Source: Termitomyces sp. T153
Taxonomy: Eukaryota > Basidiomycota > Agaricomycetes > Agaricales > Lyophyllaceae
Assembly (NCBI GenBank): GCA_018296165.2
Contig: JACKQL020000089.1
Coordinates: 62,001 to 126,000 of the forward strand
Reading direction: 5' to 3'
Length of the DNA stretch: 64,000 nucleotides
Under the pieces are notes generated by a model that was not told the DNA's origin, made no database searches, and saw nothing but the letters and a program-made list of their open reading frames with translations. Below, in pieces: positions 4,580 through 63,990 of the stretch. Position numbers and translations under genes: made by a program. Position 1 is the stretch's first letter. The number at the start of each line of letters is the position of its first letter.

Positions 4580-4670
4580 GAGCTACAGTCCATGCCTTTG
4601 GTATGGGCCTGTAGCTCTTGCTTCATCCCAGACCCAACCTCACTTTGTTTGGTTAGGTCCTTGATGTTCT
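4580..4670 (-). repeat. hairpin (4580-4617) plus one unit of the 58-bp repeat, copy A
   Basis: A 38-nt imperfect palindrome runs from GAGCTACAG to CTGTAGCTC, with 9 perfect outer pairs. It is followed by one unit of the CCCAGACCCAACCTCACTTT motif. The same pair occurs at 9661-9800 and, inverted, at 39112-39481. The left flank is AT-rich (TATAATATATAATG). Confidence 0.75.
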
Positions 4671-5579: not shown

Positions 5580-6328
5580 AGTCAGGAGGGAACTATTTGG
5601 GGACAAAGAGCCTTGGGCCACTTCCTTAGCAAGGGCATCAGCCCATTTGTTGGTGTGAAGCCACTGTGGCCAGGGGACCAGTGAATGTGAACACTCATCA
5701 CTCTTTGTGAGCAGGGAGCTACCTGCCCCTGGCCTCTTTGTCTCAAGGTGCAGCCTAACAAGCAGTCTTGTTTCCAATGGAGGTTTTCAGCCATGAAGTG
5801 CACAACATCCAGAAGGTAGTGAGCAGGATGGGGGCACTGGTTCTTGAGTGCCCAGATCATGGCTTGACTATTGCTGCCAATGATGGTGTGGTCACAGAGG
5901 CAGCAGGCTAGGGATGTTAGTAGATGGAGCCCCAGTGTGAGTCCAACAATTTCAGCTTCATAGACTGTATGTTCAGCTGCTGAACCAAGGTGGTACTTCA
6001 ATGAGGAGATCTTCTTGTTGCCTACAAACATTACTGCTGATGCCCCTATACCACCCTTAGCTCCTGAGCCATTATAGAAGACTGAGGTGGGTGATCTCTT
6101 GAAGACCCTGTCCACTGCAGTCAGGGCAAGGTCCTTGGAGGGTTCAATGTGCATGGCAAAGGATGGCCTGTAGCTCAGGTGCCTCCTGGTGGGGAGGACC
6201 ATCTCTGTATCAGAGGGGGAGATCAGTGTGTACTGGAAAAGATCATGCAAAGGTGAGCAGTGCTGCCTAACTGCATGCCCCAAGGCCTTACAAACCAGGC
6301 TGTGCAGGGGGTGTGGCAGTGCTAGCAA
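5580..6328 (-). pseudogene. LINE-1 copy RNase H domain
   Basis: A 248-aa open segment has the RNase H layout: a first strand FYNGSGAKGGIGASAVM (Asn where the first acidic residue is usual), YEAEIVGLTLGLHLL (the helix with the conserved Glu), and IIGSNSQAMIWAL, where the third acidic site reads Asn. This domain normally removes template RNA during retrotransposition. The Asn at two acidic sites suggests loss of activity. Downstream (5480-5060) a Cys/His-rich tail common to these LINEs can be read in broken frames. Confidence 0.65.
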
Positions 6329-6599
6329 GGATAGTCAGACAGCTGTGGGTGTCAGCACCTTACAAAATAGGAGATCTACTAGTAACAGGTTAGCATGTAC
6401 CTCCAAAACATCCCCAGCCATGGTGCTGAGGGCCCCCATCATAACCTTGGCAGCTTGATGCTGTGCTGCCCCAAGCTTCTTAGTCACCCCCACTGACCTG
6501 ACACGCCTGGAGCCCACAGCATTTGTACTGATGCCTGAGTACCAGATGTCCATGGCATATGTGAATGCCAGGACAGCTACAGTGTTCTAGAGCTGGTGC

Positions 6600-7343
6600 A
6601 TATGCTGAGGGAGCATGCTGCCAGATATCCTCAAGAGGTGGGAGACCTGTGCTGTCCACCAGGCTGCAGCAGCTGCAACCTTCTGCATGTGGGCTGACCA
6701 ATGTAACTTGGGGTTGAACACAATGCTCAGGTACTTGTACAAGGAGACAGTGGTGATGTGTTGTGCCAATGTGGATCCATCCTGCAGCTGTCACATCAGT
6801 GTAATGTCTGGAGAGGCCACCAAACTTCTGGTTCTGGAGAAGTTCATGGCTGCTAGTTTGGTTAGTTCAAAAGGGGAGTTATGTTGATCAGACCAGGTGA
6901 ACATGCTGTCAGTGTGGGACATGAGATCTTGTAAAATTGCATGTGTCTTGAGACTTAGCAATGGCAAGGAACATAACATTGTCTACAAAGCCAGAGGACA
7001 ACTCAGAGGGGTCACCAGCTCTGGCCACCTCAATGAGGGGTGCATTGTAGAAAGCATAATAAAGCATAGAGAGTGGGCAGCCTTGGGTAGTGCCATTAGT
7101 AGTCAAGACCCATTCAGATGTGTGATCATCAAATTTGAGTCTTGTACATCTGTCAGTCAGCATACAGTCTGCAAGACCAATGTAGCATGCTGGGACCCCA
7201 CGCCCCCTCATATTGTGAAGGAGGCAGGCTTTGACTGTATTAAGGAATGCCCCTTGAACATTCAGAAAGAGAGTGGTGGCAACCTTACCAGCCCTCCACA
7301 CATTCTTGATCCTTTGCATCACTAGATGCATCACATCTGACAT
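6600..7343 (-). pseudogene. LINE-1 copy reverse transcriptase fragment, both catalytic sites altered
   Basis: Minus-strand translation shows RT motif A as LFLNVQGAF (Asn at 7260-7262 in place of the usual Asp), then TTQGCPLSMLYYAF (motif B) and GFVDNVMFLA (motif C). The second Asp of the FVDD pair is Asn at 6978-6980. The N-terminal fingers are deleted. The frame shifts near 6909 and continues as a thumb-like region to about 6600. Without the acidic pair it cannot polymerise. Confidence 0.7.
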
Positions 7344-7359
7344 GTTGCACCCTCAAATG

Positions 7360-8645
7360 TCTTTGCGGATCACAACATGTCTCCTGCCAATGAAGATGCA
7401 GCTGTGGATCATACAATTTGTAGTGTTGGGGCCCCTGCATGAGAACTTGATGGAGGCCACCACCTGATTGGCATAGCACTGGCTTGGGTGCTTCAGCCAG
7501 TTTGTTGCAGCAATGGAACCTGAGGGTAGGCTGTCCTCCAATTCTATGGTGTGGAGGCATGTCTCATCTGATGGGTTAAAAGACCCAAGGCAGGGAACAA
7601 ACCTGGCAATGACATTGTATGCCTTGTCTATAATTGCAAAGCTGACACTGAATAACAGGGTGAATCTGGCCCATTCTGCTGAGGCTACCATCTGGAACCT
7701 GCTGGCAGAGTCAGCTGTATTGAACTTGGCAAGATATGCACTCTCGTCGGTCGGTTTTAGTCCTATGGCTTGGGTCCTGCATGGGACATGGGTAATTTCC
7801 CCTTTCTCCTGCTTGGGCAAGGCCTTGTCTTTCACATCAAAGCAGGCTAAGAGTTTGTTGAGATTGTCATGCAGGGAGGCTGACCTGACTGTGGAGAGGT
7901 CCTTGGGTGCAAGAGGGTCATCAGGGTCAAACTTGATGAGGACTGTGCATGAGTTGCACAGAGTATGCTGGCATATGTGCATAATGGCTTCCTCTGGGAC
8001 TGTGGGGGCTTGCTAAGGGGGGGTGGCCACTGGGTTGTGGGGCTGCAGGCAAGCTGCTGACCACAGATGCCCAGGAATGTGCTGTGGGGGGGACTGCAGA
8101 CACCTGTACCCTCATTAGCTTGGATGCCAGGGTATTGAGTGAGGAGGCTACTCCAACCAGAGAGTCTGAAGTGGCCCTAAAGGTCACATAGTCTTAGCTT
8201 GTTTAGAGTCAGTAGCAGCTAGGAACTCAGCTGTAGAGCTAAGGCAGTCTACCAGAGTGCCAAACTTCTCTGTGGCTTTGGCAGCAACCACATCTGCAAG
8301 AGATTCAGATATTTGATCTGTAATGTCAGCATCTAGCAAGAAAGCCACCACAAGAGCAGCACACTTCAGGTCTTTGGCTTTGGATGTGAGGGCTGCTATT
8401 GTAAGGATACTGACTAGCTTGGACCTGCTGTATGATTCTGCAGTGAGAATCCAGCCTCTGGTTTTGAGCCACTTGCATGCATCTAGGGCTGAATGGATTG
8501 GGCCTTGGTCTATGGACTGCAGGGACCTGAGGTTGGGATGTAGTGGGAGTGTAGGGGGGGGCCTGTCTGGGGTCCCACCAAAGGTGGAACTGCTGGTAGA
8601 GGACCTGCCTGAAGGTTTTAAATGGGGAGGTATTGTAGCTTCCAC
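7360..8645 (-). pseudogene. LINE-1 copy ORF1 (gag-like), broken
   Basis: Two open segments, 8645-8184 and 7982-7353, match the ORF1 of the second LINE (26.3-27.15 kb) in the conserved stretch DACKWLKTRGWILTAE followed by RSKLVSIL. ORF1 proteins of this group bind the element RNA. The first segment ends in a stop at 8184 and the second lies in another frame, so at least one frameshift separates them. No intact zinc knuckle is seen. Confidence 0.6.
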
Positions 8646-8660: not shown

Positions 8661-8812
8661 AGTGAGATAGGGTGAGAGGATAGATATAAGGCTAGTTGAT
8701 GGTGAAGAATAAAGGTTTTTACACTAACTTTGTTCTCAGTGCCCAGGACTCCAGAAGAGATGATGGGTATAAGAGATCAAGAAGCGTCCCCTTGATATTC
8801 TACTTGATGCTT
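8661..8812. other. short spacer right of LINE-1 copy
   Basis: CpG-poor sequence between the LINE ORF1 end and the tandem repeat. It probably holds the LINE 5' leader. No gene seen. Confidence 0.4.
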
Positions 8813-8965
8813 AGTCCCAGACCCAACCTCACTTTATTTGGTTAGGTCCTTGTATTCCAAACTTAATGCTAAGTCCCAGACCCAATCTCACTATGATCAG
8901 TTAGGTCTTTGTATCTCATTAACTCAATGCTGAGATCCAGACCCAACCTCACATCCATATTAATA
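8813..8965 (-). repeat. three degenerate units of the 58-bp repeat, copy B
   Basis: Three spaced copies of AGACCCAACCTCACTTT with GGTTAGGTCC, each about 60 bp apart. They match the arrays at 9690-9800 and 39112-39440. No hairpin is next to this copy. A weaker unit follows near 9136. Confidence 0.8.
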
Positions 8966-9660: not shown

Positions 9661-9800
9661 GAGCTATGGTCCATGCCTTTGGCACAGGCCTGCTTCATCT
9701 CAGACCCAACCTCACTTTGTTTGGTTAGGTCCTTGTATTTCAAATTCAATGCTAAGTCCCAGACCCAACCTCACTTTGTTTGGTTAGGTCTTTGTATTTT
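9661..9800 (-). repeat. hairpin plus two units of the 58-bp repeat, copy C (putative Helitron 3' end)
   Basis: GAGCTATGGTCCATGCC and GGCACAGGCC form a partly decayed hairpin (9661-9690). Two CAGACCCAACCTCACTTTG units follow at about 9712 and 9767. The copy lies about 290 bp beyond the stop of the Helitron Rep-helicase relic, on its 3' side, which suggests this is the 3' terminus of that Helitron. No clear CTRR end was seen. Confidence 0.6.
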
Positions 9801-10089
9801 ATTGACTAAGTGTTGCTTTTCTCTTACAATTCAATACACTGAGATTTCATGCATAAACCAATCATGTATCTATATTACATCAACAACAAAATACTACAAT
9901 GTCCACTGATATATATTAGAGATGCTGAAAATTATCAAAGTTAGTACTAACCAAGCAATTATTGAAACTGCTATACTTACATTTGTAAACCATTAAGAAT
10001 ATCTATACTACATCATCCAGCTATAGACATTAGGTACTAAAGTTCATAGATGTTAGCAATTTGTTGCTTGAATCCAACAAAAGTCACAC

Positions 10090-22314: not shown

Positions 22315-22953
22315 TCATTCATTGGGGTGGAAGCCCATGTGGCTGGGGACCCAGTAGATGCAGAGGTCTACCACATTGCATGTGCAATTAGACCATTCAG
22401 AGCAACCTTGAGGGGCTTGGCAGTAGTCAGTAGTGTGGAGTATATAGTCTTGCTTCTTGTGCAGTTGCCCTGCCACTGTGTGGATCTGGTCTAGGAGGTA
22501 GTGCACAGGGTGGGAGTGTTGATTAGAAAGGGCACAGAGCATTGCTTGGCTGTTACTGCCTATGAGGGCATGTGCAGGGAGGTTTTGCTGGAGGAGAGTC
22601 AGTAAGTGGAGGGCAAGGACATTACCCACTATCTTAGCTTCATATATAGTGTGTTGGGAGCTGCTGCCTAGGTGGTAACAGAGGTGCCACTCCTCTACAC
22701 CATCCATGTAAAGGACAGTGGATGTGCCAATGTTGTTTTTGAAGCTCAAGCCATCATAGTAAACTGCAGCTGGCATAGCTGTGAAAGTGTCCTTGGTCAA
22801 GATCAGTGCCAACTCCTTGTCAGATCCCATATTGGTGGTGAAGAATGGTGAGTGGTCTGGGCACAGCCTCACAGGCTGAACCATTTTAATGGTTTTGGGA
22901 TCAACCCCAGTGATAAAGAATAGGTAATGGAGGAGGGAGTGGTGGCATGCCAC
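22315..22953 (-). pseudogene. LINE-2 copy RNase H domain
   Basis: A 212-aa open segment carries VYYDGLSFKNNIGTS (first Asp kept), TIYEAKIVGNVLAL (the Glu helix) and IGSNSQAMLCAL, where the third acidic site is Asn. A His-containing VPSHMGFHPNE closes the domain. It is better preserved than the RNase H of the first LINE. Confidence 0.68.
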
Positions 22954-22959
22954 AAAATG

Positions 22960-24160
22960 CCTTGTGGCCTTGCAGGCAGCCTAGTGGAGGAGATGGGAGG
23001 GGGATAGGGAGGAGGTACACACTGCAGTGCATGTCAGGACCTTTCTGAACAGCAATTTCACTAGGAGGAGGTTTGTGTAAATGTTGAGAACATTGCCAGC
23101 CATTATGCTGAGGGCTCCAGTGATAATCTTGGTGACTCTTTGCTATGAAGGGACTAGCTTGTTCATGGTTGTGACAGAACCAAGTTGGCATTTGCCAGAG
23201 GGCAAGTTGTAGATGCCAGTGTACCAGATGTCAGCAGGATATGTGATTGTGGGGACAGCAACTGTGTTGTGAAGTTGCCTATGCCTCCAGAGACTCTTGA
23301 AAGGCACATTACCTGGAGTGACCACCAGGCAGTGCAGGCTATAATCTTCTGGCCATGTGCATTCCAGTACCTGGAGTCAAAGATGATGCCCAGGTATTTA
23401 TACATGGTCACAGTTTTGACATGTTGGGTAGTGACTAAGCCATCAGGAATTATGTTGAGAGGGCAGCAGGGAAAGTTCATCAGAGCCAGTTTTGAGAGTT
23501 CAAAGGGAAAGCAGTGGGATAGTGACCAGTTGAAGCCACCCCCAGCTTGGTGGACCATGTTTTCCAGGACTGCATGACATTGGGTAATGGTTTTTGCCAT
23601 TGCTAGGAACATGGAGTTGTCTACAATGAGCTTGGAGATGAAATCATTAAATTTGAGCCTTGTCTTACAGCTAGTGAGGATATGTCAGGCCAGATGGACA
23701 TAGCACTTGAGGACTCTACACTTGCACAGGTTATGGATTAGTTGGTCTTGAACAGTATTGGAAAATGTGCCTTGGATGTTGAGGAACAGGGCAGCTGCTG
23801 TGTAGCCAGAGCACCAGGCATCCTTGATCTTTAAGATCACAGTGTGCATTGTGTTAGTAGTGTTACAGCCTGGTCTTCCACCGAACTGTGTGGGGGGAAG
23901 CATGTTGTGTTTCTCAGCTAGGAAGGAGAGGTCAGTAGTGACTATAGTGGATAGGAACTTCCCAACTGTGTTGAGAAGTCCTATTGGCCTATAGGCCTTG
24001 GTGACATTATAGCTTGGCTTGCCAGGCTTGCACAGAATCAAAGTAGTGGACTCTAGCCACATGGTGTGGTATACATTGAGGTTGAGCACAGCTCAAAAGA
24101 TGTAGTATAGGTGGTCTATGAGCATATCCACACATTTTTCCAGCACCACATTGAGGATCC
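22960..24160 (-). pseudogene. LINE-2 copy reverse transcriptase, both Asp sites altered
   Basis: 24089-23685 gives KAYRPIGLLNTVGK, QFGGRPGCNT and motif A LFLNIQGTF (Asn at 23778-23780). A stretch with motif B is deleted between about 23690 and 23640. 23612-23163 begins just after motif C, which reads VDNSMFLAM (Asn at 23616-23618), and continues with YKYLGIIFDS of the thumb. Both RT metal-binding positions are lost. Confidence 0.72.
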
Positions 24161-38385: not shown

Positions 38386-39111
38386 ATGGCCACCTGTATG
38401 ATCTTCCCTTAATAATAGAGCTCAAATAGAGTCTAAGAAGTAGAAAAACATAATTCATCATAACCCATTGCTTCATTTTTCCCAGAGGTGTATTTAGAAC
38501 AAAGACATAGAGCTTGAGTAGGATAGATGAATTTTCTGGAATGGAACCAGCTTGAGAAGGCAGAAGGAATAATTACAGAAAGTATGTGTACAATAGATAG
38601 AGTCAATGAGGAAAAAAGTGGACAGAAGGTGGAGGAGATAGAAAACTTTGCAAGTATATAAAGCATAGAATTGTCTATTTAATGAGAAATCACTTGGAAG
38701 AGTTAGAATATTGAAGACCTAACCAAATGAAGTGATGTTTGATCTGAATTTGATCATTGAGTTTAGAATATTATAGATGTAACAAAGGGAATCATTAAGA
38801 CATGATCACCACTTCTTATGTTACTTCCTGAAAGAATGAAGTTAAAAGCTTTATTTAACTGAAGCCAATATAGTTGAAATAATAGTAAAGACTTATGTCA
38901 GCTGATATAAACAATGAAAGGACTATAAGCAAAGAAAGACCTAGGTTGGAATGGTAAGAGAGAATAAGTGGAAAAGCTCCATTTCTCTAACAATCTTGAT
39001 TATTTAAAAGTGGGAATCTTACAAAAGAAAATCAAAGACTCAAGTAGACAAAGTTAGAATAGGTCTGGCTTTTAGTACAACATGAGCTGATGAAATAGGA
39101 GTTGATGAAAT
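38386..39111. repeat. left part of hairpin element copy D
   Basis: AT-rich sequence with decayed versions of the 58-bp repeat from about 38700 (GACCTAACCAAATGAAGTG, GATGTAACAAAGGG). No coding potential. It probably belongs to the non-autonomous element ending at 39481. Confidence 0.45.
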
Positions 39112-39440
39112 ACAAAGACTTAACCAAACAAAGTGAGGTTGAGTCTGGGATGAAGCACTGAGTAGAATATTGAGGACCTAACCAAACAAAGTGAGGTTGA
39201 GTCTGGGATGAAGCACTGAGTAGAATATTGAGGACCTAACCAAACAAAGTGAGGTTGGGTCTGGGATGAAGCACTGAGTAGAATATTGAGGACCTAACCA
39301 AACAAAGTGAGGTTGGGTCTGGGATGAAGCACTGAGTAGAATATCAAGGACCTAACCAAACAAAGTGAGGTTGGGTCTAGAATGAAGCACTGAGTAGAAT
39401 ATCGAGGACCTAACCAAATGAAGTGAGGTCTGGGATGAAG
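39112..39440 (+). repeat. 58-bp tandem repeat array, about six units
   Basis: Near-identical head-to-tail units of 58 bp, each with GACCTAACCAAACAAAGTGA then GTCTGGGATGAAGCACTGAG. There are no spacers, so this is a minisatellite. The last unit is shortened and runs into the hairpin. Confidence 0.92.
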
Positions 39441-39443
39441 CAA

Positions 39444-39481
39444 GAGCTACAGGCCCATGCCGAAGGCACGGGGCATAGCTC
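39444..39481 (+). repeat. terminal hairpin, copy D
   Basis: Imperfect palindrome GAGCTACAGGCCCATGCC-GAA-GGCACGGGGCATAGCTC over 38 nt. It marks the exact edge between CpG-poor repeat DNA and the host gene island. Possible Helitron-type 3' end. Confidence 0.75.
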
Positions 39482-40385
39482 GTTGATTTTAAAATAGAAG
39501 TTCAAACAAATCTTCAAGCAAATGATTAAGGTTCATTTATCAAATAAAACTCTAAAATGAAGTCTAGTCCGCGTTGTAAGCCTAGCTAATCCGCTCCCTA
39601 GGTATTCCGAGCCGCACGCCAAATGTTGCTTGACGGTCTCAAAATCCCCCCTTCCCTTTTATACCGCTCTTGTTGCGCACGGACCACAATGTCCCGTGCG
39701 TGCTCCTGTTGTCATCGTTGCCCGACGCCGACGATTTTTCTAGTTCCGCGTGGTGGGCAAAGGTTTGGTCCTGTCCCCCTCGCCCATTTTCTGTTCCTTC
39801 TCTCCCAAAATCCTTCTCTAACCTCCGCGTCCTCTCTCGGTCCAATCGATGGTCGAATTCTGTACGTGACTCGAGGGGGAGGAGGTGGTTGCCTGGGCTG
39901 GGGTGGGCGGGAGAGCGCTTTCTTGGCGTCGGTCAGGAAGTAACCGACCCGAGCTAGCACTGCCACCTGTTAGGCGAGTCCAGTGCGATCACTGTCTCGA
40001 TCACTGACGTGGACGAATCCTCACTCCTTCGCTCGTTGTGCTGCTCAGGCATTGTTTTTAGTGTCTTTTCTGGAATCATTGGTGTATCTTGTAAGTCCCC
40101 CTTCTGCCTACTGTTCTCGGCTTGATTTTGCTTACAGTTTTCAACAAAATTATTATTTTTATTGGTATATTGAGGGGGGACTTTTTCTACTTATTCCGTC
40201 GTTTCTCTTTGGTAAGAGACGGCACGGCGTAACAATATGATAAACATTACAAATCCATGATAAAGAAATAAGGATAATGAGGGATGGAGGATGATAAATA
40301 AGACCAAGTATGGCGAATAAATGGAAACATATCTGAGTGGTCATATGACGAGTTGAGTCCTGACACCACCTCCACGTACATACAA
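39482..40385. other. host intergenic DNA right of the first repeat island
   Basis: CpG returns at about 39568. Only overlapping short open frames are present on both strands at 39620-39960, without domain signal. The last 150 bp are likely 3' UTR of the minus-strand gene that ends at 40386. Confidence 0.5.
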
Positions 40386-41669: not shown

Positions 41670-42460
41670 GGAAGTTGGATGGATAGCGGAGTGTCAAGGG
41701 AGGATGCAACCAAGGGTGATAAATTGTCCGTTGGATCAACTTTTTGAAGTGTATCTATATGGCATGCCACATAATGGCAAACATTACCATCGTCATGAGT
41801 AGCTTTCAAGCTGCTAGATCAGAAAGAACAAAACCTTCAACACGACGTTACCACACGGCCATCCCCGTAAGGCAATCAATGTCACAAAAAGTCAATTGTG
41901 AATAACGAAGTGGGATTAACCTTAATGTTCTTTTGCCATAAGAACACACAAGGACTACAATACTAAGTAAATCCACTTTTATTTATAATAACATTCCTTC
42001 AAGCGATTCTTATTCTTGGAAAGCAATCACAAGGGGTTGATCGAGATAAAAGTAAACGTGTTAGTGTGGCGATAGGTGGTGACTGACCAAGCTCCAATGG
42101 CGACCGTGCCGAACATAGCAATCACAATTGACAAGTTCCAAGATCAGTATGCTTCTTGTGTACAGGTCTGCACAGGAGAGGATAAACTGTCGCCAGAACA
42201 GAAACAAAAGCAGAAATGATTATTATTCACACTGGCACACATGATGAAATTGCCAATGTATATATACGATGATACATCGCTTACATGGCCAGAAGCGGAT
42301 TTTTTTTGTGCTTTGAATGGCTACAAAAGAAAGTCTTGTTTTGGAGGACCACTTGACACATTCTGGATTTCGGAATCGGACGGTGCACGTTGCTGAGTCA
42401 TCATTTGTTTTTTTTTAAATACGGGCACTCAAGCTTTTAAGTTTCAATACCACACCTGCC
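41670..42460. other. divergent intergenic region
   Basis: Shared upstream region of the minus-strand 427-aa gene and array gene A. No gene is seen. A TATATATACGATG stretch at about 42255 and a T-tract at 42300-42307 are possible promoter parts of gene A. Confidence 0.45.
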
Positions 42461-43311
42461 ATGCATCTTGTCAATAATCCACTCTATAAACGCTCCTTAG
42501 AAGAGTCCGACCCAGCTCTCTGGTCCCCAAACGACGTTGAAGCCCTTGTAATCCCTGGGCTTTCTTCTTATCAGTCCCCACGAAGACGTGTTCCAGACTT
42601 CCCTCACCGTCGGCCAGTAGAGCGATGTCTAGAAAAACTCCAGATTATGGATCGTCACACACACAGTGAAAGAGCTATGTTCTCGAAGATATTTGACCTG
42701 ATCGAGTACGCCATGCAACGCGTCGGCAGAGACAGACAAGTTTCTGTTGTCAATGATGGCTCTCCCAAGATCGAGGTCAATGGCGAAAGCTTCAGTATAC
42801 CCTTCCATCTTGGATGCACCGTCAATGATAGCCCTATATTTCATCTTATCGACAGTTTTGCGCGATATGAAGAGCGTCGTCAGCTGGTTCCAGATTTGGA
42901 GCATGTCGCGCAAGACGAAGTTTCCACAGATGGATTCGATGTTGCTGCTCTGATTGCACAGGCTGCGAATCAGAAGGAGTGGTCTTCCGGGCCAGATGGA
43001 ATCTATAAGGTCAATTACATCATCCTTACTTTATCATTACATTGATCCTAGTTGTTTTTCCCTCCCTTCAGGCTCATGTTCTATACCCCACCTCCACTTA
43101 CAAGAAATTGGTTTTATTGACAGGCTGGGTTCCATACAAGACTGTGGTTGCCCTCAGGGAAGGTCATGAAACACTTGAGCCCATCACCCTCAGTCGTGAG
43201 CTCATCGACGTCCCCTGTGATCCTCACTGCGACTGGAATGAGATTGTTCTTTTCCAGATCATTGCAGGCCTTATTGACGAAAGTACCAAACTCTCAGCGA
43301 AGAGGGTGTGA
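42461..43311 (+). CDS. array paralogue A, two exons, 262 aa, unknown family
   Basis: Exon 1 is 42461-43009 (183 codons), intron 43010-43071 (GT..AG, 62 nt), exon 2 43072-43311 (TGA). The start MHLVNNPLYKRS is shared by all four array members. Conserved blocks are SDPALWSPNDVEALVIPG near residue 18, VVNDGSPKIEVNGESFSIPF near 95, a basic and acidic middle, and VPYKTVVALREGHETLEPI in exon 2. No known domain, signal peptide or membrane segment is seen; the protein looks globular and cytosolic. It is the first of four direct copies spaced about 1.24 kb apart. Function unknown. Confidence 0.82.
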
Positions 43312-43718
43312 CGGATATTCAACCTACTATCACAATGTTGTTACATCGCTTATTTGACATCAGAATCTTGCTATTCCGATGAATGTGCATAATCCCTTCT
43401 ATTCAAAATCTCTGATAGGACCAAGGTCCAGACCAAAAGACATTATGAACAACGGCCGTCGGAGTCTGTGTCGCTGCTGTGAGTATGTGAAAACTCAGTG
43501 CCCTTCAATTTTGATCCATACATGATCATCAACAACGAACGTCAACAAGCTCAGCGTTTTTACAAAGAAACGCACCAGCAGTGCCCATTGAGTGACCGAC
43601 AAAAGACGATTTCTGGATTTTGGAACTGAGAGTGGTCGGAGTGTGAACTTTGCTTAGTTTTTAATCGTTGGTTCTTCCAAGTACAGAAAATTTCCAAGTG
43701 TTGAGAATTACAGTTGCC
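43312..43718. other. array spacer A-B
   Basis: Contains the shared spacer motif CAACGAACGTCAACAAGCTCAGCG (shortened in places) just upstream of gene B, as in the other spacers. Probable promoter of gene B. Confidence 0.5.
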
Positions 43719-44584
43719 ATGCATCAAGTTATCAATAATCCCCTCTGTAGACGCTCTTTGGAAGAGTCCGACCCAGCTCTGTGGTCGCCAAACGACGTTG
43801 AAGCCCTTGTAACCCCTGGACCTGCTTCTTATCATTCTCCACGAGGACGTTTTCCAGTCATCCCTGACCGTTGGCCAGTAGAGCGATGGATGGAAAGGCT
43901 GCAGATGATGGATCGTCACACACACAGCGAAGAAACTATGTTATCGAAGATATATGACCTGATAGATTATGCCGCGCAAAGTGTCGGCATTGACAGACAA
44001 ATTTCTGTTGTCAATGATGGCTCTCCCAAGATTGAGGTCAATGGCGAAAGCTTCAGTATACCCTTCCATCTTGGATGCACCGTCAATGATAGCCCTATAT
44101 TTCATCTTATCGACAGTTTTGCGCGATATGAAGAGCGTCGTCAGCTGGTTCCAGATTTGGAGCATGTCGCGCAAGACGAAGTTTCCACAGATGGATTCGA
44201 TGTTGCTGCTCTGATTGCACAGGCTGCGAATCAGAAGGAGTGGTCTTCCGGGCCAGATGGAATATACAAGGTCTATTACATCATCCTTTCTTGATTTTAA
44301 TCATTACATTGATCATAGTTCTTTTTTTTTCCCCTTTTCTTCAGGCACATGTTCTATATCCCACCTCCAATTACAAGAAATTGGTTTTGTTGACAGGCTG
44401 GGTTCCATACAAGACTGTGGTTGCTCTCAGGGAGGGTCATGAAATGCTTGAGCCCATCTCCCTCAGTCGTGAGATCATCGACGTCCCTTGTGATCCTCAC
44501 TGCGACTGGAAAAAGATTCCTCTTTTCCAGATCATTGCAGGTCTTATTGACGAAAGCGTCAAACTCTCAGCAATGAGGTTGTAA
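43719..44584 (+). CDS. array paralogue B, two exons, 263 aa
   Basis: Exon 1 is 43719-44270 (184 codons), intron 44271-44344 (74 nt), exon 2 44345-44584 (TAA). I chose ATG 43719 because it begins the shared MHQVINNPL; an in-frame ATG-less extension upstream is not conserved. The second half of exon 1 is nearly identical to gene A (one base in about 250 differs). The intron and exon 2 are identical or almost identical to gene D. It is intact and its function is unknown. Confidence 0.82.
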
Positions 44585-44935
44585 CGGATTATCAACCTAC
44601 TGTTGCTACCCTGGTAAAGCACTGATTCTTGTCGTTCCGATGATTGTACATCGTCCTTTATTCAAAAATTCATGTTAAAACCAAGGTTTAGACTGAACGA
44701 CAATATGAACCTATATAGAAAAGCATCATCCACAGTCCAACAGCCCTCTGAGTCTGCCGCTGTCGTGAACATACGAAAACTTACTGCACTTCAATTTGAT
44801 CGACAACAACGAAGGTCAACAAGCTCAGCTTTCTCTTTTTTTTAAAAAAAAAACAAACAAAAGTGATCGGAGATGAACTTTGCTTAGTTATCAAGGTACC
44901 GATAATTTCCAGTGTTAGGATACGCACCACTCGCC

Positions 44936-45797
44936 ATGCATCAAGTTATCAACAATCCCCTCTGTAAACGCTCCTCGGAAGAATCTGACCCAGCTCTGTG
45001 GTCGCCAAACGACGTTGATACCCTCGTAATTCCTGGACCTGCTTCTTATCACTCCCCACGAGGACGTGTTCCAGCCTTTCCTCACCGTTTCCCAGTAGAG
45101 TGGTGGGTGGAAAAGCTGCAGATATGGATCGTCACACACACTGCGAAGAAACAATGTTATCGAAGATATATGACCTGATAGATTATGTCGCGCACAGTGT
45201 CGGCGTTGACAGACAAATTTCTGTTGTTAACGATGGCTCTCCCGAGATCGAGGTCAACGGCGAAAGCTTCAGTATTCCGTTCCATCTTGGATGCACCGTC
45301 AATGATAGCCCTATATTCCACTTGATTGACAGTCCTGCGCGATATCAAGAGCGTCTCTATCTGATTCCAGATCTGGAGTATGTCGCGCAAGATGAAGTTT
45401 TCACGGATGCACTCGATGTTGGTGCTCTGATTGCACAGGCTGCAAATCAGAAGGAGTGGTCTTCTGGGCCAGATGGAATCTACAAGGTCTATCACATCAT
45501 CCTTTCTTGTTTTGATCATTACATTGATCATAGTTGTTTTCCCCCCCTTTTCTTCAGGCTCATGTTCTATACCCCACTTCCACTTACACGAAATTAGTTT
45601 TGTTGACAGGCTGGGTTCCATACAAGACTGTTGTTGCTCTCAGGGAGGGTCATGAAACACTTGAACCCATTACCCTCAGTCATGAGATCATCGACGTCCC
45701 TCGTGATCCTCACTGTGAATGGGAAGAGATTGTCCTTTTCAAGATCATTGCAGGCCTTATCGATGAGAGCATCGAACTTTCGGCAACGAGGTTGTAA
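44936..45797 (+). pseudogene. array paralogue C, frameshifted by one base
   Basis: Exon 1 would be 44936-45486, intron 45487-45557 (71 nt), exon 2 45558-45797. Exon 1 is 551 nt against 552 in B and D. The lost base lies at about 45120-45125: gene B reads CTGCAGATGATGGATCG and C reads CTGCAGATATGGATCG. The frame breaks after residue 62 and the MHQVINNPL start leads to a stop at 45178. The rest, from the downstream frame, still encodes the family pattern, so the break is recent. A sequencing error cannot be excluded. Confidence 0.78.
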
Positions 45798-46176
45798 CGG
45801 ATATTCAACCTACTGTTGTGACTTTCTATATCGTCTGGTACCTTGGTACTCCACATATTTGACATCAGACTGCCGTTATTCCGATAAATGTACATAATCC
45901 TTGCCCTCTATGCAAGACTTTTTGATAAGACCAGGATTCAGGCCGAAAAACAATATGAACCTATGTAGAAGAGAACTGTCAACAGTCCAATGGTCCTCTG
46001 AGTCTGCCGCTGTCGAGAACATACGAAAACTTGGTGCTTCAACTTGATCCCACAACAACGACGAAGCTTTTTTTTAACAAAAAAACAGCAACCGAAAGGT
46101 GATCGTGTGAACTTTGCTTAGTTATCATTGGTTCTTTGAAGTGCAGAAAAATTCCAAAGTGTTAAGATACCTTGCC

Positions 46177-47041
46177 ATGCATCAACTTATCAACAATCCC
46201 CTCTATAAACGCTCCTCGGAAGAGTCTGACCCAGCTCTATGGTCGCCAACCGACGTTGAAGCCCTTCTAATTCCTGGACCTGCTTCTTATCACTCCCCAC
46301 GAGGACGTGTTTCAGTCTTCCCTGAACATTGCCCTTTAAGGTGGTGGTTGGAAAAGCTCCAGGTTATGAATTGTCACGAAGATGGTGAAATATCCATGTT
46401 CTCGAAGATATATGACTTGATCGAGTATACCATGCAACGCGTCGCCAGGAACAGACAAGTTTCTGTTGTCAATGATGGCTCTCCTGAGGTCGAGGTCAAC
46501 GGCGGAGGCTTCAGCATTCCCTTCCATCTTGGATGTTCTGTCGATGATAGTCCTATATTTCATCTTATCGACAGTTTCGCGCGATATGAAGAACGTCGTC
46601 AGCTGGTTCCAGATTTGGAGCATGTCGCGCAGGACGAAGTTTCCACGGATGCACTCGATGTTGCTGCTCTGATTGCACAGGCTGCGAATCAGAAGGAGTG
46701 GTCTTCCGGGCCAGATGGAATATACAAGGTCTATTACATCATCCTTTCTTGATTTTAATCATTACATTGATCATAGTCCTTTTTTTTCCCCTTTTCTTCA
46801 GGCACATGTTCTATATCCCACCTCCAATTACAAGAAATTGGTTTTGTTGACAGGCTGGGTTCCATACAAGACTGTGGTTGCTCTCAGGGAGGGTCATGAA
46901 ATGCTTGAGCCCATCTCCCTCAGTCGTGAGATCATCGACGTCCCTTGTGATCCTCACTGCGACTGGAAAAAGATTCCTCTTTTCCAGATCATTGCAGGTC
47001 TTATTGACGAAAGCGTCAAACTCTCAGCAATGAGGTTGTAA
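46177..47041 (+). CDS. array paralogue D, two exons, 263 aa
   Basis: Exon 1 is 46177-46728 (184 codons), intron 46729-46801 (73 nt), exon 2 46802-47041 (TAA). The start is MHQLINNPLYKRS. Residues 50-75 are the most divergent part among the four (EHCPLRWWLEKLQ here). The exon 2 sequence matches gene B exactly up to the stop. All splice sites are conserved. Unknown function. Confidence 0.82.
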
Positions 47042-47868
47042 CGGATATTCAGCCTATCGTCGCTACCTTGTTAAATCACTGATTCTTGTCGTTCCGATGA
47101 ATGTACATCGTCCTTTATTGAAAACTTTATGATCAAACCAATATTCAGACTGGAAGACAATATGAACATATGTAGAAAAAACTGTCAACAATTCAACAGC
47201 CCTCTGAGTCTGCCGCTGTCGTGAACATGCGAACACTTAGTGCTCTTCAATCTGATCCACAACAACGAAGGTCAACGTCCGAGTCTCTGCCACTGCCCTG
47301 AACATGGCGAAAACTTGGTGCCCTTCAATTCGATCCACAACAACGAAGGGTCAACAAACCCAGCGTTTTTCCTTTTTTTCAAAAAAAAAAGCACTCGATG
47401 AGGACGAGCCGCCGCCGACTTGCAGCTAGTAGATTCACCAGTACCACTTGGATGTCCGGCAGATATCTAGAGGGGATGTGGATCTACATATAATATTTCG
47501 TCACGACCAAACTACACACGAATTCAAAAAATCCTTTGGATACCATTAGTACTGACAAGTCATCGGAGCTCCTACACACACCACACCACGCGCAACACAT
47601 CACTTCAACGGCTGGCGAATTGTAGCCGTAAAAAAGGATTGTCACGCCGTTGTAAATCTACGACCTCGAAGCTCACTTTCCATGACACATTCACCCACCC
47701 ACACACACCTCAAATACCACTTTCAAAACCCACTCAACAACACCACCCAAAAAATAGTTCCAATTCCCAAAAGAAAAAAAGAATACAAGTACAGCACTAG
47801 AAATAGTATGTCCCAACCCCATACTCACGCCTACTCCCTATATACACTAAATCACTAACCCTCCCTAC
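47042..47868. other. spacer after the array, with a duplicated spacer block
   Basis: Two copies of an about 80-bp block (47203-47282 and 47283-47362) carry GATCCACAACAACGAAGG and CTTCAAT. They match the spacers between array genes. The rest, 47400-47868, holds no gene and includes an AC-rich stretch. Confidence 0.6.
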
Positions 47869-61141: not shown

Positions 61142-61861
61142 ATGTGGGAATTGAAGCTCAAGCAATATTGATCAAACTGCAGCAAGTGGCTGCATAGGGA
61201 GCAAAGTTGAAGCATGGCCACTATTTGTCACAGGGTTCTTCCCAATCAATTAAAAAGGGTCAGATGTACCCTGGTGCTTCTCTAGCTTTTTCTAATGTCC
61301 TCCTCAGTGCTGCTGTCATTGTCAGCTTTAGCATCCACATCAGCATCCCCTACCTCTCTGCCATCAGATGATAACCATGTTGAGGTGTGGAAAGAGTATA
61401 AGAGGCATTGAGAAGAGTTCAACTGTCATTAGGACTAAAAGAAAGTGGATGTGATGTATTGTAGCTATAGGTGTGCAGGTTTTGCTACTTGATGCATTGC
61501 TAACTCAAATCTGGCCAGAGCTATCTGCAGTGGTGGTGCCCCCATCTTGAATCACTTCTTGAGGAGGGGCTCTAGGGCAGTTGCCATCAATGCAATCTTC
61601 AAGACTGAGTTTTAGTCTGGGGGTCATACAAGTTGTTTTAGAGGTTTTATACATTGCATGGGTAGAGGTGACTCTTGCAGAGGTGGTAGAACAAGTACAG
61701 AGTCCTCCAACCCTTGAATGGTGCCAGGTGGAGGCTCTGGTGAGTGGCTAGTGGAATCTTACCCAGTCCTAGCTGATCTAGTTGCATAGTGCACTCTCTG
61801 CACCTGATGGAAGGAGCAGTGTAGCTTTAAGGTGCCAGTGTTGAGGTCATGGCAGGATATG
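61142..61861 (-). pseudogene. gag-like relic, G family, copy 2 (left part)
   Basis: Matches the 28.8-29.3 kb relic (GAGCTATCTGCAGTGGTGG; CTCCAACCCTTGAATGGTGCC). It continues after the SINE insertion at 62798. No clear domain. Confidence 0.45.
61847..61861 (+). repeat. 15-bp target-site duplication, left copy
   Basis: TCATGGCAGGATATG, identical to 62798-62812. Confidence 0.9.
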
Positions 61862-62797
61862 GGGCACAATGGCTCAGCTGGCACCAGTGTGTCCCCAAGC
61901 AGGTCACCTGACTTGCGAGTGCAAGGCCGGGGTTTTGACTCTGGCTGAGTGCGCCTGTGTGGAAAACACCTTAGACACCACGTGGGTTATTTCAACGCTG
62001 CCGGAAAGCCACTGCCTGCACATGTTGATTAGGCAGGCTTTGTAGTGCAGGCCAACCAGGACTGACCAATCAGCACGTGGTTCAATGAGGCACAGTGACT
62101 ACCATGCTCGTGACCAATCAGAAAAAGAGAAAGTTTCTCTGGTGCAATGGATTTGGGAGAGGGTCTAGGCCTTTGCTGACCAAGCAGGTCGTGGCACAGG
62201 TAGGCATGAGGATAGGAGTCAATAGTTTGATCACGCTGCCAATGCAATGCATGGTCCATCGGATGGGTTTGGTGAGGTGAAATATCCCTGTTGGCCGGTT
62301 CGATTGGGTGCTAAGCTGAAAAGGTGCGGCATGCCATCACTGGGCTGACCACTGGCTCATTCTGTCATAGGTTCCAAATCTCAGGATCAATCTTCCAAAA
62401 GTAGTGTCTGGGTGTGGGGAAGGGTTTGTTGTGAGGCCCTTACTGGTGCATGGGAGTGGGAGGCTATGAGCTGGCCAAGCGCCTCATCATGGGACAATAC
62501 CAGTGTGCACACAGTAAGCCCTGCCAAGTACAGCTGGGTTTAGAAATTGGGACGGCACGTTAGCAGCAGATGGTGGTGGGATTTAGTGTGGGAAGTAGTA
62601 TGAACTCCGATGAAGTCAAATTGTAGTAAAGTGGCTATGAGGCATAATCAGCATCAGCTGAAAAGGGATCAGGCCAGAGAACTAGTTGGAGTGTCCATAA
62701 TTACCACCCCCATTACGTACTGTGGGTCCTAGGACACTAAGGTCATGTAAAATAGGGCTCAAACAAAAAATATATGGTCAAATCAAATCAAGTCAAA
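61862..62797 (+). mobile_element. tRNA-derived SINE-like insertion, 936 bp
   Basis: Begins GGGCACAA directly after the left 15-bp duplication. Bases 61870-61881 are TGGCTCAGCTGG, a perfect Pol III A box, seven to eight bases from the element start as in a tRNA. GGTTTTGACTC at 61931-61941 fits a B box with small drift (spacing 61 bp, as in a tRNA with a long variable arm). GCCGG and CTGGC around it can pair like a T-stem. A second B-box-like GGTTCGATTGG lies at 62297. The 3' end is a TCAAA-type simple repeat running into the right duplication. CpG is normal, unlike the surrounding relic. No reverse transcriptase is present, so a LINE would have moved it. Confidence 0.78.
61870..61941 (+). promoter_or_regulatory. 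internal RNA polymerase III promoter (A and B boxes) of the SINE-like element
   Basis: A box TGGCTCAGCTGG (61870-61881) and B-box-like GGTTTTGACTC (61931-61941). Confidence 0.65.
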
Positions 62798-62812
62798 TCA
62801 TGGCAGGATATG
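62798..62812 (+). repeat. 15-bp target-site duplication, right copy
   Basis: TCATGGCAGGATATG, identical to 61847-61861. Confidence 0.9.
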
Positions 62813-63990
62813 TCAGTGTGCCTTTTGTGTTGGTTGAGGCATGAGAAGTGCTTCATCTTGTTGAGGTGGCATGCTGCTTGTATTGCTGTGGAGCAGGGTT
62901 GGGGCTGGGAGTGGGTGGCAATGCAGCTGGAGGAAGAGTAGAGGGGTAGGACATCAGGTTGGGGGCCCAGAATGGAGGGTAGGGATAGCACAGGGCAGTT
63001 GATAGTGAAGGTTGGACCCCCACAGCATGGGTGGAGGAAGGGGGCCTCTGCAGCATGCAACAAAGGTAAGTGGAGGGCATCTCCATTACTAGAGGTGGGG
63101 CCTAGCAAGAGGGTTTGAGGCAAGGGGTTGATAGTGGGGCAACTGGGCCCCCAGGTGTACTTCCCTGGTTCTGGGGCCTCAGAGAAACAGTCTATGGAAG
63201 TGTCCTGGTCAGTCTCCAAGGCACTCCTGCATTGTCAGGTGGAGGGACTGCAGGAGCTGCTAGTGACCCACAAGGAGGAGGTCTGGAGGATTGGGGAGGA
63301 CTGAAACAAGTGGAAGCAAGGCAGGGCACTCCTGAAGCTGGAGTGCCTCCCATAGTATTGGAGACTACATGGAGGCAAGAGGAGTGGCTCACCAATGAGG
63401 TGGCCTCAGAGCAGAGAGGAGTCATGCATGAGTTCTCCCTCTTTTCTGCTCTGGCCTTACTCATGTGACCTTGTAGACTGGATCTGCAAGCACAGGATCC
63501 TTCTCAGTGGGGCCTCAGCTACATTCGTGTCAATTCAGGATAGGTTCAGGATGGGCTGGCACAGATGCCAGGAGATCATCTTGCAGAGTTGGGGCAGAGT
63601 GTGGGTCAAATGGGGAGGTTGTTGGTGAGGCACAGGCAGAGGAACATGGTGGAGCCTGAGTCATGGTGGGAGTTGGCCACAGATGTGGGGGAGCCTCTCC
63701 CAAGATACCTGGAGACTCTGGCCATAGTTATGACCTAGATGGAGGTGGACCTGATGGAGAGGGTAGTGGGGGCTGTTCCAGAGGAAGAGGGGGAGTAGAG
63801 GGGGATCTTGAGCTTCTCCTGTCTTGCACCATCATATTTATCTTCATTGTAGCATCTTTTCTTTTTTCATTGCCTAAATTACCATGTGTTTTCTTGAGCT
63901 TTGGTTTGGCTGGATTTGGAGGAGTCAGTTCTTCTTTGCTCATGCGAGGAATAAAACATGCAGGGAGTTTCTTGTGGGAGTTGAATCCCT
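62798..63990 (-). pseudogene. gag-like relic, G family, copy 2 (right part)
   Basis: Minus-strand segments 63943-63728 (start MSKEELTPPNPAKPKLKKT, basic and Pro-rich) and 63219-62788 (Pro/Ser-rich, ending NKMKHFSCLNQHKRH) resemble a disordered gag N-terminus. The match with 29.24-29.35 kb (CATCTGCC..TTCTGTG and AAATGTTCTGTC in drifted form) shows it is the same repeated element. It is open at the window end. Confidence 0.45.

Follow-up and report, generated by a model that had tools for sequence, protein, structure and literature searches.

The SINE copy and its surroundings

The window analysed here, a 64,000-nucleotide stretch of the genome of the fungus Termitomyces sp. T153, contains one copy of a dispersed family of tRNA-related SINEs (Table 1), an identification that the genome-wide comparisons described below confirmed. 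This copy is an old member of a large family of ~0.9-kb parasitic DNA pieces. As the initial annotation had claimed, it is bounded by two identical 15-mers (TCATGGCAGGATATG), carries an A box (TGGCTCAGCTGG) close to its 5' end and terminates in a simple-repeat tail. The B-box-like motif was also present where it had been placed (GTTTTGACTCT), but it deviates from the consensus, the CpG-rich copies having TTTCGACTC at this position. Both labels follow the A- and B-box consensus sequences. The body of the element is non-coding (Table 1); the antisense strand of the CpG-aware family consensus has a 175-codon stretch free of stops.

Table 1. Parts of the SINE copy and its target-site duplication (coordinates are those of the window).
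Feature	Coordinates	Strand	Remarks
5' copy of target-site duplication, TC first	61847..61861	+	Single at paralogous empty sites
Whole SINE copy, TCAAA-tail group	61862..62797	+	Relatives in own genome, common 5' end
tRNA-related head	61862..61959	+	Alignment with tRNA-Ala(CGC) spans about 61862-61941
A box TGGCTCAGCTGG	61870..61881	+	One of 12 positions varies among 23 aligned heads
B-box-like motif, here GTTTTGACTCT	61932..61942	+	GTTTCGACTCT in CpG-rich copies
Body	61960..62746	+	Longest sense-strand open frame in family consensus, 79 codons
Pre-tail, TCAAA group	62747..62777	+	Group pre-tails L002 and L003 compared with LINE 3' ends
Tail TCAAA TCAAA TCAAG TCAAA, in phase with target TC	62778..62797	+	Phase assigned by eye
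3' copy of target-site duplication	62798..62812	+	15-mer TCATGGCAGGATATG

The copy sits inside an old repeat, and we found four paralogous places at which both flanks are matched and the insert is missing (the flank searches scored the best 40 of 94 and the best 40 of 492 candidates). On C61, the match to the left flank (C61:242657-243068) runs to the last base of that flank and the match to the right flank (C61:243054-243453) begins with its first base, so that the two share exactly 15 bases, as many as the duplication has. The same holds for the corresponding pair on C10 (C10:914429-914841 and C10:914827-915211). At C14 near 377350 and C21 near 775320 the matches stop short of the junction, and a gapless extension gives 15. 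These empty sites rest on alignment coordinates at 67-79% identity.

Several other features of the window were noted. A direct repeat at 42453-47276 comprises up to four copies with a spacing of about 1.21-1.27 kb, which contain open frames of 165-212 codons with related sequences. A 58-bp tandem repeat occupies one strand at 39059-39487; at a distance of about 29-35 kb, the opposite strand carries related copies (near 4580-4670, 8790-8930 and 9691-9815). By eye, there are two decayed LINE-like coding stretches at 5582-8645 (-) and 22315-24089 (-), whose 3' ends resemble those of the poly(A) LINEs represented by L072 and L073; a Pfam search of two pieces from these relics returned no match.

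A dispersed family with a common 5' end

The genome of this strain comprises 72.4 Mb in 307 contigs. The best 40 of 328 candidates in the own-genome search were retained as loci; these include the window copy, to which the others are 80-88% identical, and L013, whose match stops 26 bases short of the contig end. The 17-base head motif TGGCTCAGCTGGCACCA is found at 205 places with at most one mismatch, compared with a single place for the reversed pattern. A second search, for which the final 146 bases of a different copy served as the query, scored the best 40 of 152 candidates. That the element exists in multiple copies, as had been predicted, is therefore clear from both the 40 loci and the head motif.

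The predicted common 5' end was likewise borne out: in 33 of the 40 copies the alignment starts at query positions 1-11, with L010 and L038 beginning at positions 29 and 30 and five copies at 93-369. The expectation of one shared tail and 3' end held for only 10 copies, which reach query position 930 or beyond; the remaining 30 diverge at 884-902, beyond which their terminal bases and tail are their own. L039 and L040 are truncated at the 5' end (positions 187 and 369) and are nevertheless flanked by repeats, as would be expected under target-primed reverse transcription. An internal deletion is common to L024 and L025, whose duplications differ, so that the deletion variant itself must have moved.

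Some loci are duplicates. L027 and L028 (C78:90102-90989 and 62019-62906) represent one SINE copy present twice, in opposite orientation and 28 kb apart, with identical duplications and the same flanking sequence over the stretch compared. L020 and L021 are likewise identical, one of the two lying near the start of contig C6.

CpG content as a measure of age

The initial annotation had proposed that the element keeps its CpG. The observed/expected CpG ratio is indeed 0.33 in the window copy and only 0.00 and 0.03 in its flanks, although 33% of the 936-bp stretches of the window match or exceed the CpG richness of the copy. The CpG-aware family consensus, built from 35 copies by a rule that favours CpG, has a ratio of 0.90, and the same 35 copies range from 0.04 to 0.84. 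Judged by its own family, the window copy is thus well decayed; its nearest relatives are 89% identical to it. SINE copies, then, lose CpG after insertion, and the spread of 0.04-0.84 provides the family with a built-in age scale. The seven highest values (0.65-0.84) all belong to copies with TCA tails; two further TCA-tailed copies, L012 (0.44) and L016 (0.27), are low in CpG.

Relation of the head to tRNA

Among 23 aligned heads the A box is invariant at 11 of its 12 positions, whereas the B box is imperfect. The best match to the heads among 28 tRNA genes (taken from 60 matches listed) was the intron-bearing L125, named tRNA-Ala(CGC) by ARAGORN. For four of five heads its alignment score was reached by none of 300 window 98-mers, and for the head of the window copy itself by 2 of 300, these scores being uncorrected for the 28 tries. 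Three other tRNA genes (L124, L114 and L126) also score well with some heads. The head thus resembles a tRNA, and tRNA-Ala(CGC) is a candidate for its parent.

The proposed folding of the head with a tRNA model, on the other hand, gave a negative result, so that the relation to tRNA is one of alignment. Rfam at a permissive threshold identified no tRNA in the window element or in 10 other copies, and ARAGORN identified none in the window or in three SINE copies. Consensus folding of the head predicted no cloverleaf, and the single-sequence fold was no better than those of shuffled sequences (z -1.07). These results would fit a head that is not derived from tRNA, its A- and B-like boxes being due to chance or to some other promoter, in which case the element would be a LINE-mobilized non-coding RNA gene or a deleted LINE. 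We consider this unlikely, given the near-invariance of the A box and an alignment with tRNA-Ala(CGC) that extends from base 1 as far as the B box and that, in the case of four of the five heads, none of 300 window 98-mers equalled. We call the head tRNA-related. The sequence TTTT is absent from the consensus before the tail; since 30% of dinucleotide shuffles also lack it, this absence is not significant and was dropped as a Pol III signature.

Target-site duplications and the TC rule

Different duplications flank the different copies, as the initial annotation had anticipated. A flanking direct repeat with a score of at least 9 was found at 34 of the 40 loci, compared with 31 of 1560 mismatched flank pairs, 10 of which reached a score of 10; the duplicated loci L020/L021 and L027/L028 were left in among the mismatched pairs. 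The loci without such a repeat are L010, L013, L029, L031, L037 and L038. With L021 and L028 dropped as repeats of L020 and L027, there are 32 independent insertions, whose duplications are 9-18 bp long (median 14).

This length bears on another reading of the element, namely a tRNA-containing non-autonomous LTR element, i.e. a TRIM of the Helenus kind. Helenus elements occur in fungi, including some Agaricomycetes, and are 311-1263 bp long (PMC10886601); the SINE copy is likewise short and non-coding and has a tRNA-like part. The duplications of fungal Helenus measure 5 bp, however, and in the present family the tRNA-like head is at the 5' end and a simple repeat at the 3' end, we met no pair of LTRs, and there are 5'-truncated copies with duplications. 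Such an origin is therefore extremely improbable, and we treat the family as SINEs.

The tail units found across the copies are TCAAA, TCAA, TCA, TCAT, TCAC, TCCA and TC, every one of which contains TC. The tail is thus a changeable microsatellite with TC in all of its units, which is a new observation. The same dinucleotide marks the target: in 20 of the 32 independent insertions the duplication starts exactly with TC (background 0.066, P = 2.6e-16). The two are in phase, as a whole tail unit immediately precedes the duplication in 19 of these 20 insertions, where random phase would predict 5.8. The one exception is the window copy, which the script scored as out of phase because of its one TCAAG unit and which is in phase by eye. 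Inspected by eye, five more insertions (L008, L023, L027, L039 and L040) fit the TC rule if one or two ambiguous bases are assigned to the tail, and seven of the 32 (L003, L015, L020, L025, L026, L032 and L034) depart from it even so. In L023, L033 and L036 an unusual tail unit equals, by eye, the first 3-4 bases of the target, and the target itself might even seed the tail unit in such cases.

Candidate partner LINEs

The single locus read among the RVT_1 matches (L042) has, by eye, a Gypsy-type frame; this route to LINEs was therefore given up and the search was moved to the endonuclease family PF14529. It yielded 109 matches, from which three kinds of LINEs were examined. The third kind has a poly(A) 3' end, and poly(A) LINEs, including the two apparent relics in the window, were set aside as partners because their tail differs.

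LINE-A encodes an RNase H domain and has a 1380-codon frame in two copies. Its tails consist of TCAT or TTC units, with TCCAT in one copy. Of 14 copies (7 + 7) picked as probably 5'-truncated, 7 have a duplication of at least 12 bases close to where the match begins; these counts are raw, the mismatched-pair control covering SINE loci only, and shorter or second matches of 9-10 bases (L094, L096, L097 and L105) were left uncounted. Six of the seven duplications are 14 bp long. Five start exactly with TC (L093, L099, L100, L101 and L104), while that of L103 starts with TTC and that of L094 with CA. Nearly identical LINE-A sequences with the 1380-codon frame occupy the first 4.2 kb of contigs C114 and C121, the former contig beginning within the LINE-A tail, and a truncated LINE-A copy with 98% protein identity is found at C3:247455-247865.

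LINE-B, which is 26-27% identical to LINE-A, is represented by four copies ending in TCATCA repeats, that is, in TCA units. Duplications are present in three of them (there is none at C49) and start with AT, AA and CA, never with TC. Downstream of one LINE-B copy, at about 900-1400 of L085 (C3 near 1300200-1300700), there is, by eye, a CpG-depleted relic resembling rDNA ITS/5.8S.

Most of the LINE-A duplications found start with TC and none of the three of LINE-B does; hence, among the LINE kinds examined, the scar left by the SINE is that of LINE-A, with the same start and length of the duplication and the same kind of tail. The family is real and of a known kind, and its TC-anchored insertion rule is common to one LINE family. 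The LINE-driven retroposition originally suggested for the window copy is supported both by this LINE family with the same insertion signature and by the truncated copies L039 and L040 with their duplications.

Could LINE-B drive the SINE instead? Its TCA units match the tails of the seven SINE loci richest in CpG, but none of its three duplications starts with TC, a difference in the target that led us to reject it as the partner, and its 3' ends have no significant likeness to any of eight SINE pre-tails. We regard LINE-B as a rather unlikely driver, leaving LINE-A as the favoured partner.

The comparison of 3' ends is less telling for LINE-A itself. When the last 40 bases before the tail were compared with LINE-A for eight SINE pre-tails, using softer gap costs, that of the L030 group stood out, its likeness to LINE-A being equalled by only 2 of 1500 window 40-mers. 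Two more were borderline (25 and 36 of 1500), and the other five were not significant; one of these five fits poly(A) LINE ends (10 of 400 dinucleotide shuffles) and LINE-A (27 of 400) to a similar degree. The pre-tails of the window copy's own group (L002 and L003) have no significant likeness to the LINE 3' ends, and when gaps were penalized strictly, 48 comparisons of SINE and LINE 3' ends gave a minimum p of about 0.01. There is thus a weak indication that a minority of SINE groups may have 3'-end sequence in common with LINE-A.

A proposed mechanism of insertion

We consider it probable that this tRNA-related SINE is moved by LINE-A through target-primed reverse transcription with priming between a GA-3' end and UC. 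The tRNA-Ala(CGC)-like head would supply a putative internal Pol III promoter, and the resulting ~0.9-kb SINE RNA, as judged from the DNA, would end in a short UC-containing repeat. The endonuclease/reverse transcriptase, presumably provided by LINE-A, would nick the target so as to leave a primer ending in ...GA-3', which could pair with a UC of the RNA tail, and reverse transcription would begin there. Once a unit has been copied, the cDNA would again end in GA and could slip back to the last UC. Such slippage from UC to UC would make a microsatellite of the tail, with a unit set by the spacing of two UCs. What is left behind is the duplication of ~14 bp starting with TC, and the inserted copies then lose their CpG.

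More tentatively, and with less than even confidence, we suggest that one priming rule serves both the SINE and LINE-A, whereby any RNA 3' end with two nearby UCs can be primed from a nicked ...GA-3' and slippage rewrites the unit at each jump. Rewriting from UC to UC would account for the variety of tail units, of which the SINE family has seven and the LINE family three. If this is true, the tail is a changeable address label and not an inherited sequence.

Comparison with known systems

The family offers the full anatomy of a SINE, a candidate parent tRNA and, in the same genome, a LINE with a long open frame as the candidate partner. The shared TC scar allows one question to be addressed from sequence alone, namely whether insertion site and tail phase suffice to assign a SINE to its LINE where the two have no obvious match at the 3' end. 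Among the titles listed for SINEs of fungi, and of basidiomycetes, Agaricomycetes and mushrooms in particular (Repbase and most subscription journals lying outside the search), there was work on the SINEs of ascomycetes and none that pairs a SINE of mushroom-type fungi with its LINE.

In the Drosophila I factor and other LINEs with simple-repeat tails, the short-repeat tail is attributed to slippage at the start of reverse transcription. The unit of the I factor is TAA, whereas here the SINE and the LINE have several units that share TC and are tied to the TC of the target. In the case of L1 and Alu, the target end pairs with the poly(A) tail of the RNA, and the SINE need share little with the LINE beyond that tail; in the present SINE a microsatellite with TC in its units takes the place of poly(A).

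The window copy had been described as unusually long. It does exceed the 100-700 bp given for SINEs in one paper (PMC10886601), but fungal SINEs of 472-900 bp have been named, including those of 800 and 900 bp (PMC5063351). Similar in described length are EGH24/egh1 (900 bp) and Egr1 (700 bp) of Erysiphe graminis and mgsr1 (800 bp) of Magnaporthe grisea (PMC5063351). MgSINE and Foxy are, by description, tRNA-derived fungal SINEs, as the present one may be, with about 100 and 160 copies, respectively; MgSINE is 472 bp long compared with ~0.9 kb here (PMC5063351). Beside EGH24/egh1, Egr1 and mgsr1 as described there, the candidate partner LINE and the tail rule are features of the present family.
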